Below are positions 33,995-38,675 of a stretch of 64,000 nucleotides of DNA, piece after piece. A program made the translations under genes and the position numbers. The notes under the pieces were generated by a model. It was not told where the DNA came from, searched no databases, and saw nothing but the letters and a program-made list of their open reading frames with translations. The number at the start of each line of letters is the position of its first letter. The stretch's first letter is position 1. Source of the stretch: Candidatus Rubrimentiphilum sp. (GTDB lineage: Bacteria; Vulcanimicrobiota; Vulcanimicrobiia; Vulcanimicrobiales; Vulcanimicrobiaceae); NCBI GenBank assembly GCA_035710515.1, contig DASTDE010000002.1, positions 1-64,000 of the forward strand, written 5' to 3'.

Positions 33995-36043
33995 CTACGG
34001 TTGCGTCGTGGGATCCGGGGGAGCCGGCGTCGGTTCGGGCGAGAACGTGGGCGCGGGCGGCATATCCGCAGCGCCGTTAAAAACCGTGATGCCCTCTTTT
34101 TTGGCAAGCGCCCGTGCTTGGCCGCACCGGGTCAGCGGTTCGGTTCCGGTGAGAAAATATTCATACGGTCCGTAGCCGCCACCGCAACTGGCGACTTTTT
34201 GCACTTCATCGCCGGGAATAATGAAGTCGTGCTTGGCCACGTTCTTCAGCGCGCCTTGCATGAAGCGCGCCCAAATGCGGGCCGGAATATTTCCGCCGTA
34301 CGATTCGCTCATCGGATGGTAATTGTCGTTGCCCAGCCAGACGGCAGCGACGAGATCCGGTGTATAGCCGACGAACCACGCGTCGCGAAAGTTCGTCGTC
34401 GTGCCGGTCTTGCCGGCGGCGGGCCGTCCGATGATCGCGTTCGGGTTTCCCGTCCCGTGGTTGATGACGTCTTCCAGCATGGTGGTCATGACGTAAGCGG
34501 TGCCCGCACTTATGACTTCGGTCTGCTCGGGATAGAGGTTGTCGAGCACGACGTTGCCCAGCGAATCTTTCACAATTCGAAACCCGGAGGGCTTGACGTG
34601 CACGCCTTGATTGGCAAGCGTCGAATAGCCGCTGGCCTGATCGAGCGGACTGATGACGGACGTGCCGAGCGCGAGTGAAAGATTCGGTTCGAGCACCGAC
34701 TCGACGCCCATGCGATGCGCGTATTGGATGACGCGATCGACACCCACGAGTTGCAACAGCTTCACCGCCACGATGTTGCGGCTCTGCGCCAGCGCAACGC
34801 GCAGCGAGATCGGGCCCATGTAGCGGAAGTCGTCATCCTGCGGCGCCCACTGCGTGCCGTCGCCCATCGGATAACTCACCGGCGAATCGGAGATCACCGT
34901 CGTCGGCGGCATTCCCGAATCGATGGCCGCGGTATAGACGTATGCCTTAAACGAAGAACCCGGCTGGCGATGCGCTTGCCACGCGCGGTTGAACTGGTTT
35001 TGCAACGAGAAATGCGTGCCGCCGACCATCGCGATGATCTCGCCGGTCGACGGACGTATCGCTACCAGCGCGGCTTCGTCGGCGCCGATGCCTTCGGACT
35101 TAGCGGCGTTCACGCCCCAATCGATCGCGCTTTGCGCGACGTCTTCGACGGCCGGATCGACGGTCGTGTAGACTTGCAGGCCGCCTTCGTACGTCGCTTG
35201 CTTTCCAAATGTGTGCTCGAGCTGGTCGACGACGTACGTCGTAAACCACGGATCGCGAAAACCTTGCAAGCCCGGCGGCCGCAACCCGGTGAGTTGCAGC
35301 GGCGCGGCATAGGCCGCATCGGCTTGCGCCTGCGTGATGTAACCGCTTTCGACCATCCGGTCCAGCACGTGACGCTCGCGTTCGCGCGCGAGCGGCAAAT
35401 TGACGTACGGCGAGTAATCCGACGGCGCGGCAATGAGTCCGGCCAGCATCGCGGCTTGGCCGAGCGTGAGCGTGCTGATGTTTCGACCAAAATACGTGTG
35501 GGCCGCCGCGCCTACGCCGTACGCATTCGAACCCAAGTAAATCAGATTGAGGTAGCGCTCCAGAATCTCGTCTTTGGTGTAGTAGCGCTCGATCTCCATC
35601 GCCAGCAGCGCTTCTTGCACTTTTCGGGCGATCGTCTGCTGCGGCGTGTAAAACAATCCGCGCGCCAGCTGCTGGGTGATCGTCGACGCCCCTTGCTCGA
35701 CGCGATGATGCGACAGGTCGGCGATACCGGCACGCGCGATGCCGAAGAAATCCACGCCGTGATGCTTATAAAAGTTGTGATCTTCGTTTGCGATAAATGC
35801 GTCGCGCACGAGATGCGGGATCTTGTCTATCGGCAGCCAGATCCGGTTTTCCTTATAAAGGGTCGCGAGCAGGCTTCCGTCGCGCGCGTAGAGGCGCGTC
35901 GAGCGCGCCGGCTGATAATCGGCCATCCGGCTGATGTCGGGTAGGTTGCGCGAGTATGCGGCCACCAAGCCGGCGACCGAGCCCGCTACGAAGAGCACGA
36001 TCAACAGCAGCGCAACCGCGACGTAGCGTAACGCCTTACGCAC
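33995..36043 (-). CDS. Class A penicillin-binding protein (PBP1A-type)
   Basis: The 682-residue bifunctional peptidoglycan synthase has an N-terminal transmembrane helix (about 8-30) and a GT51 glycosyltransferase domain with NEDHNFYKHHGVDFFGI and QGASTITQQLARGLFYT. The transpeptidase domain has SSFK (SxxK), SRN (SxN) and AAGKTGTTTNFRDAWFVGYT (KTG). A Pro-rich C-terminal tail ends the protein. The GTG start is 8 bp inside the end of nusB, so it is coupled to the nusB operon. Confidence 0.95.
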   Translation of the reverse strand: MRKALRYVAVALLLIVLFVAGSVAGLVAAYSRNLPDISRMADYQPARSTRLYARDGSLLATLYKENRIWLPIDKIPHLVRDAFIANEDHNFYKHHGVDFFGIARAGIADLSHHRVEQGASTITQQLARGLFYTPQQTIARKVQEALLAMEIERYYTKDEILERYLNLIYLGSNAYGVGAAAHTYFGRNISTLTLGQAAMLAGLIAAPSDYSPYVNLPLARERERHVLDRMVESGYITQAQADAAYAAPLQLTGLRPPGLQGFRDPWFTTYVVDQLEHTFGKQATYEGGLQVYTTVDPAVEDVAQSAIDWGVNAAKSEGIGADEAALVAIRPSTGEIIAMVGGTHFSLQNQFNRAWQAHRQPGSSFKAYVYTAAIDSGMPPTTVISDSPVSYPMGDGTQWAPQDDDFRYMGPISLRVALAQSRNIVAVKLLQLVGVDRVIQYAHRMGVESVLEPNLSLALGTSVISPLDQASGYSTLANQGVHVKPSGFRIVKDSLGNVVLDNLYPEQTEVISAGTAYVMTTMLEDVINHGTGNPNAIIGRPAAGKTGTTTNFRDAWFVGYTPDLVAAVWLGNDNYHPMSESYGGNIPARIWARFMQGALKNVAKHDFIIPGDEVQKVASCGGGYGPYEYFLTGTEPLTRCGQARALAKKEGITVFNGAADMPPAPTFSPEPTPAPPDPTTQP

Positions 36044-36443
36044 TGCCGTTTCCTCGAATTACGGAAGCCAGGACGCCGTTGACGAAACGCCCGGAGTCTT
36101 CGGTCGAAAACCGTTTGGCGAGCTCCACCGCTTCGTTGATGACTACCGGCCGCGGAGTCTCGGGGCGATGCCGCAATTCAAAGGCCGCCATGCGCAAGAG
36201 TAAACGGTCGATCGTCGGCAATCGTTCGATCGTCCACTGCTGCAGCAGTGGCGCCAGGGTCTCGTCGCTTTCTTGCGTGTGCTCCAGCGTACCCAGAACG
36301 AGGTCTTTCACAAAAATGCGGTGCGCGGCGTCACCGGAAGCAATGAGATATTCGTCCAGCACCTCCGACGGATCGCGGTGCCCGACCTCAACCGAAAAGA
36401 GCGCTTGCAGCGCAAGCTCGCGGCCCATTCGACGCGACGGCAT
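36036..36443 (-). CDS. nusB: Transcription antitermination protein NusB
   Basis: The 135-residue all-helical protein starts SRRMGRELALQALFSVEVG and ends with the family segment RPVVINEAVELAKRFSTEDSGRFVNGVL. NusB with NusE binds boxA RNA in rRNA antitermination. The ATG at 36443 is taken because AGGGA overlaps the accC stop just upstream; longer extensions read into accC. Confidence 0.95.
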   Translation of the reverse strand: MPSRRMGRELALQALFSVEVGHRDPSEVLDEYLIASGDAAHRIFVKDLVLGTLEHTQESDETLAPLLQQWTIERLPTIDRLLLRMAAFELRHRPETPRPVVINEAVELAKRFSTEDSGRFVNGVLASVIRGNGSA

Positions 36444-36454
36444 GCCGGATATCC

Positions 36455-37799
<1,345 letters not shown>

Positions 37800-37807
<8 letters not shown>

Positions 37808-38210
37808 GTTCTATCTCAAAGAGCACTTGCCCATACTCAACGGGCTGGCCCTCATGGCAACAGACCGAAACCAAACGGCCGGGGCCGAGCGAGCGCACCG
37901 GATTGCGGATACCCAGCGCTTCCACGAATGCCAGCTCGCGATCCGATTCGAGCATTTCGCCTTCGACCGGCAATGGGCGGCTGAAGCGGAAAATGCCGAC
38001 AAGATCCGACTTTATTTCGTCAAGATTTGCCGGCGCAGCAACTGAGATCGCCGCCGGTTCGGCATTTGGAGGCGCTGCCGTGCGCATGCTCGCGCGCCGC
38101 CGGAGCTCGACGTGTCCGCCGTCGCGCTCGATACGCATCCGGACCAGATCGGTCTCCAAGAACGCCTGCACCAGGGAGCGCACGCGTTCCACTACGGGGT
38201 TCTCAGGCAT
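37800..38210 (-). CDS. AccB-like protein lacking the biotin-attachment lysine
   Basis: The 136-residue protein has BCCP layout: an N-terminal helix (1-30), a linker (40-65) and a C-terminal biotinyl-type hammerhead (about 66-136). Where BCCP has EAMKM, this protein reads EALGI at 97-101, so Gly100 replaces the lysine. The codons GAAGCGCTGGGTATC are clear in the DNA. Position directly upstream of accC and the rest of the domain (GQPVEYGQVLFEIE) identify the family. It cannot carry biotin. It may be a regulatory or structural ACCase subunit, as the plant BADC proteins are, with the true BCCP elsewhere, or a decayed copy (inference). Confidence 0.85.
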
Positions 38211-38216
38211 GGGGGG

Positions 38217-38675
38217 CTACGAGTTCGCCTCTACGGATGCGCGTTCCGCTGCGGGCAGCTTGGCCGCATCCGCCGCGAAGCGTTGGTCGATCTCGGCCAG
38301 CGGTATCAGCGCGAAGGCGCGCTCGTGCAAGCGCGGATGCGGTATCTGCAAGCCCACTTCGTCAACGTGCACGTCGTCGTAGAACAGAATGTCGAAATCG
38401 ATCGCGCGCGGTCCCCAGCGTTCGCCCTGCGTGCGGCCCAACCGGCGTTCCATCTCTTTCACGCGATCAAGAAGTTCGCGCGGCGCAAGCGCTGTTTCCA
38501 CGATTACGGCCGCATTGCAGAAATTCGCCTGGTCCGTGCGTCCCCATGGTTTCGTTCTATACAAGCGCGAACGCGCGAGCACAGTTCCGACTTCGGCGAG
38601 TGCGTCCATTCCGGCCCGAACGTTCGCCGCCGGGTCGCCGAGATTGGAGCCCAGCCCTATTCCCGCTCGGGCCAT
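38217..38675 (-). CDS. folK: 6-hydroxymethyl-7,8-dihydropterin pyrophosphokinase
   Basis: The 152-residue HPPK starts AGIGLGSNLGDPAANV and carries the FCNAAVIVET and RWGPRAIDFDILFYDD motifs. It makes HPPK product for folP. It overlaps folB by 19 bp and lies 6 bp upstream of the accB-like gene. Confidence 0.95.
   Translation of the reverse strand: MARAGIGLGSNLGDPAANVRAGMDALAEVGTVLARSRLYRTKPWGRTDQANFCNAAVIVETALAPRELLDRVKEMERRLGRTQGERWGPRAIDFDILFYDDVHVDEVGLQIPHPRLHERAFALIPLAEIDQRFAADAAKLPAAERASVEANS

Follow-up and report, generated by a model that had tools for sequence, protein, structure and literature searches.

The window, that is, the whole stretch of 64,000 nucleotides analysed here, contains the gene order folP-folB-folK-accBx-accC-nusB-PBP, on the minus strand throughout. 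AccBx is the name we give to the accC-linked homologue of AccB/BCCP, and the features of its locus are collected in Table 1. A reading-frame check (38210-37800, minus strand) found the accBx ORF free of interruptions, and the AccC encoded next to it begins with V/M-F-K-K-V-L-I-A-N-R-G-E. The preliminary description of this DNA had presented an undisrupted gene, overlapping accC by 8 bp and having both the domain and the operon place of a BCCP. All this stands: the ORF is open and intact from its start codon, the overlap is found as described, and the BCCP character is borne out by PF00364, by the alignment with E. coli BCCP (4HR7) and by the adjoining accC. The overlap is identical in the seven genomes of the genus, including this one, and makes translational coupling of the two genes likely. 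In the wider sample, accBx and accC are separated by 20 bp at most in 66 of 74 loci, with overlapping frames in 28.

Table 1. Features of the accBx locus, with positions in the window
Feature	Position	Strand	Remarks
accBx, lysine-less AccB/BCCP homologue	37800..38210	(-)	ATG start, 136 aa
N-terminal helix (residues 5-19) and beta-hairpin (22-28, 33-38) of AccBx	38097..38198	(-)	AlphaFold2 model; counterpart in canonical AccB
Biotinyl/lipoyl-type barrel of AccBx, residues 61-136	37803..38030	(-)	Pfam PF00364; Foldseek
EALGI, residues 97-101, replacing EAMKM	37908..37922	(-)	Gly100 at biotinyl-lysine position
Overlap of accBx stop with accC start	37800..37807	(-)	8 bp
accC, biotin carboxylase	36455..37807	(-)	450 aa; TIGR00514 633.6 bits, cut-off 626.5; active-site motifs
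folK (HPPK), upstream neighbour	38217..38675	(-)	
nusB, downstream neighbour	36036..36548	(-)	ORF as called runs into accC 3' end

The replacement of the biotinylation motif by EALGI, which had been noticed from the letters alone, is confirmed by alignment. E97-A98-L99-G100-I101 falls on E-A-M-K-M of E. coli BCCP, and a profile of AccBx relatives, which matches residues 24-176 of 4HR7 (E = 5.8e-12), sets 'EaLGiRnpvR' over 'EAMKMMNQIE'. The sole lysine of the window protein, K66, is not conserved. In the AlphaFold2 model (mean pLDDT 83), the N-terminal helix and beta-hairpin are followed by a low-confidence linker and then by the barrel; strands 91-98 and 101-107 are connected by a turn that holds G100, at the site of the biotinyl lysine. 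With this barrel, Foldseek retrieved E. coli and Arabidopsis BCCP structures, namely 1bdo (TMt 0.81), 9a87 and 4hr7. A model of the canonical AccB displays the same kind of N-terminus (helix 3-16, hairpin 21-26/29-34) and is poor beyond it, with a pLDDT of 46. The thumb is gone from AccBx of the class to which the window belongs. As to curated profiles, window AccBx passes the biotinyl/lipoyl domain PF00364 narrowly (22.7 bits, cut-off 22.1) and reaches 41 bits with the BCCP equivalog TIGR00531, the cut-off of which is 115.2; five other accC-linked copies score 40-71 bits with the latter. The biotinylated lysine in E-A-M-K-M/L that defines a BCCP/AccB is replaced by Gly100. Judged on the lysine and on the curated score, AccBx stands outside BCCP/AccB.

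A second accB with a normal motif, proposed as a check in the preliminary description, is present in the same 2.54-Mb genome. This unlinked canonical AccB (C4:491508-491942) carries EAMKLFNEI and passes TIGR00531 (122.9 bits for a cut-off of 115.2); its gene is flanked by those of histidyl-tRNA synthetase and of a SIS-domain protein. The genome also harbors two adjacent carboxyltransferase genes of AccA/AccD size (C3:293688-295009), one biotin ligase and two biotin carboxylases: the window AccC, which is the only stand-alone one, and a 608-aa BC-BCCP fusion, encoded less than 2 kb from an acyl-CoA carboxyltransferase gene. These genes make up a complete ACC, with canonical AccB, AccA, AccD, biotin ligase and stand-alone AccC. 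A search for PII protein (PF00543) gave none in this genome, and found it in 13 of 14 control genomes.

Of 60 relatives, 57 have canonical AccB; the remaining three are genomes 70%, 84% and 90% complete, the last one in 360 contigs. Seven genomes (G055, G057, G058, G059, G062, G070 and G079) have no biotin carboxylase besides the linked AccC, which must hence charge the unlinked AccB. AccBx is lysine-less in six of these seven, so that the co-encoded partner is not the carrier there. Biotin carboxylase, free AccB and AccBx were all searched for and not found in four genomes of family f10 and four of family f15; this co-occurrence, together with the tight gene spacing, ties AccBx to AccC plus AccB. 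These eight genomes, up to 98% complete, seem to be devoid of the standard malonyl-CoA route. AccC itself differs within the phylum: in the class of the window (families f1-f3), a conserved active-site motif reads CSxQKPSHQK (or KPGHQK), while the other AccC of the phylum have CSxQRRxQK or similar. This one-residue insertion, with its altered arginines, possibly co-evolved with the thumb-less AccBx.

The nearest named records to this genome are MAGs of Candidatus Eremiobacterota (Vulcanimicrobiota). From about 80 genomes, we gathered AccB-type sequences, 79 of them accC-linked and 64 unlinked. A different, additional accB-accC pair accounts for three of the linked sequences, found in two genomes; with these set aside, 76 linked copies remain. 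The extra pairs retain an intact motif of the EVMK[LF]xNTI type and fall with canonical AccB in the tree. The window protein was matched in 58 of 60 relatives, and AccBx stands beside accC in nearly all sampled Eremiobacterota that possess a stand-alone biotin carboxylase. The lysine is absent from 67 of the 76 loci, across 15 families, with G, N, R or S in its place, and present at the motif in all 64 unlinked AccB copies. Within the order of the window (families f1 and f2), Gly is found in 40 of 40 linked copies, so that EALGI passes the check on conservation in relatives which the preliminary description had also proposed. Family f3 is divided between R (6 of 14) and K, as EALK (8 of 14), whereas 21 of 22 more distant copies have G, N, S or R and the only f4 copy, that of G055, has K, as ESMKF. 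EALK and EALR alternate among related f3 genera, a behavior that would be unlike that of a cofactor site. The preliminary description had left room for a single mutated or misread gene, to be betrayed by AMKM at this locus in relatives; the conserved glycine of the order and the lysine-less state found phylum-wide leave no place for it. The loss of the lysine is an ancient, phylum-wide state of a paralogue rather than a recent event.

Public contigs were also scanned with a pattern specific to the order, and the matches bore the titles Eremiobacterota/Eremiobacteria, Vulcanimicrobiota, UBP12, 'bacterium' and, in two cases, 'Rhodospirillales'. The latter two carry an Eremiobacterota-type accBx and are probably mislabelled MAGs. 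No match to AccBx was obtained among viral contigs, and a plasmid search returned two weak partial matches, both to biotin/lipoyl-containing proteins.

A maximum-likelihood tree was computed for 108 sequences with the motif columns left out; in it, one branch (100/99, 100% of bootstraps) separates 56 of 56 linked copies from the canonical and extra-pair copies. Although the tree leaves many inner forks unresolved and several of its linked rows are long, the AccBx/AccB split is stable, and such a single split places the duplication before the diversification of the sampled phylum. Comparisons within the genus give a dN/dS of about 0.11 for accBx, 0.09 for accB and 0.04 for accC, which indicates that AccBx is under purifying selection. 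Among the AccBx regions compared, the lowest pN (0.028) is that of residues 89-108, the former biotin hairpin, and R91, E97, L99, G100, R102 and R106 are invariant in a 21-sequence alignment of the order. The hairpin thus seems to have been re-purposed rather than to be decaying. Moreover, 15 of 40 order-level copies contain no lysine at all within the matched region, making biotinylation chemically implausible there.

We propose that AccBx, an ancient AccB paralogue, probably works as a non-catalytic subunit of ACC in the manner of plant BADC, likely as a scaffold. What points to this in the sequences is the fold, the missing lysine, the linkage, the co-occurrence, the single split and the purifying selection, with linkage and co-occurrence bearing on it indirectly. 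The catalytic, biotinylated AccB is encoded away from the accBx-accC pair, and coupled translation likely yields AccBx alongside AccC. It would then bind AccC and/or biotinylated AccB, most likely by the N-terminal helix-hairpin common to both paralogues, and take its place within the biotin carboxylase core, serving there as a scaffold by which the number of active carriers is set, as proposed for plant BADC. Physical binding, stoichiometry and net effect, either assembly or damping of activity, are here conceived by analogy with the plant system. The plant BCCP-BADC model makes use of the BCCP thumb, lost in the class of the window, so that the contact made by AccBx may differ. The lysine kept in eight of 14 f3 copies and in the f4 copy speaks against a non-catalytic role.

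This last point would find an explanation if AccBx were still biotinylated, either on another residue or, in lineages keeping the lysine, at the motif itself. We consider this very improbable, since K and R alternate among f3 genera, G, N, S or R stand elsewhere, 15 of 40 copies of the order offer no lysine in the matched region and the same genomes also possess a canonical AccB. The low BCCP equivalog score of AccBx could on the other hand suggest that the gene is a pseudogene in decay, or that its state comes from a recent mutation or an error of sequencing. Conservation refutes this: the gene is intact in more than 70 loci phylum-wide, with a low dN/dS and invariant hairpin residues, and independent assemblies agree. 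A function outside ACC, for instance with the fused BC-BCCP acyl-CoA carboxylase that this and many related genomes encode, would reduce the link with accC to mere genetic proximity. It is unlikely, given that seven genomes with AccBx have no other biotin carboxylase and that AccBx is missing where AccB and AccC are missing.

The more serious alternative, which we regard as possible though clearly the less probable, is that AccBx acts mainly as a competitive inhibitor or rheostat, displacing AccB on AccC and leaving fewer active carriers, without helping assembly. Of the two interpretations published for plant BADC, one is inhibition (PMC7712654; PMC12873504), and a fixed ratio to AccC would follow from tight co-translation. 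PII regulates plant BCCP (PMC7712654), and a genome where none was found could need another regulator. However, an inhibitor produced permanently with its target throughout a phylum would be a burden if left unregulated, and no gene for a regulator was identified; an NMR study of plant BCCP1 also argues against inhibition (PMC11926652). We favour the scaffold over pure inhibition, with a moderate preference. As to the whole enzyme, we lean towards an obligate five-component ACC (AccA, AccB, AccBx, AccC and AccD), in which a permanently non-biotinylated AccBx, its translation coupled to that of AccC ever since the phylum arose, would have a structural or regulatory part and represent a bacterial counterpart of BADC that probably evolved independently.

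ACC is the control point for entry into fatty-acid synthesis. The dispute on whether plant BADC inhibits or assembles this enzyme could be addressed with the lysine-less, accC-linked partner of Eremiobacterota, which provides a simple expressible test set of five genes without plastid. Our results also suggest that non-catalytic ACC subunits can arise repeatedly through loss of the biotin site. For annotation, they warn that the accC-linked 'accB' of Eremiobacterota is not the carrier.

In the single limited literature collection that we searched, a lysine-less AccB subunit was not described for any bacterium. Non-catalytic 'glue' subunits needed for assembly occur among bacterial acyl-CoA carboxylases (cited in PMC11926652). 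AccBx would share with them the nature of a non-catalytic subunit. These 'glue' subunits are not known to be BCCP homologues. In BC1 of Chloroflexus aurantiacus, two BC dimers are joined by the N-terminal beta-hairpin of the BCCP region and not by the biotinyl core (PMC11077971). This offers a model for a structural role independent of the carrier function, but BC1 is a biotinylated BC-BCCP fusion and not itself a lysine-less paralogue. With AccB/BCCP itself (TIGR00531, 4HR7), AccBx has in common the helix-hairpin N-terminus, the linker, the biotinyl barrel and the accC neighbour, and differs by the absence of the biotin lysine and, in the class of the window, of the thumb, as well as by a score far below the equivalog cut-off.

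The closest parallel is plant BADC of the plastid heteromeric ACCase, which is homologous to BCCP but lacks the AMKL biotinylation motif, and which occurs alongside a biotinylated BCCP, with biotin carboxylase as a separate protein (PMC11926652). It has been described as a glue between BC and BCCP or, alternatively, as an inhibitor (PMC11926652, PMC7712654, PMC12873504). At the level of sequence, AccBx presents the features of such a subunit, a motif-less BCCP homologue accompanied in the same genome by a biotinylatable BCCP and a separate BC. AccBx differs from BADC in being bacterial and phylum-wide, in the overlapping or nearly overlapping frames of accBx and accC, and in the missing thumb of its class.
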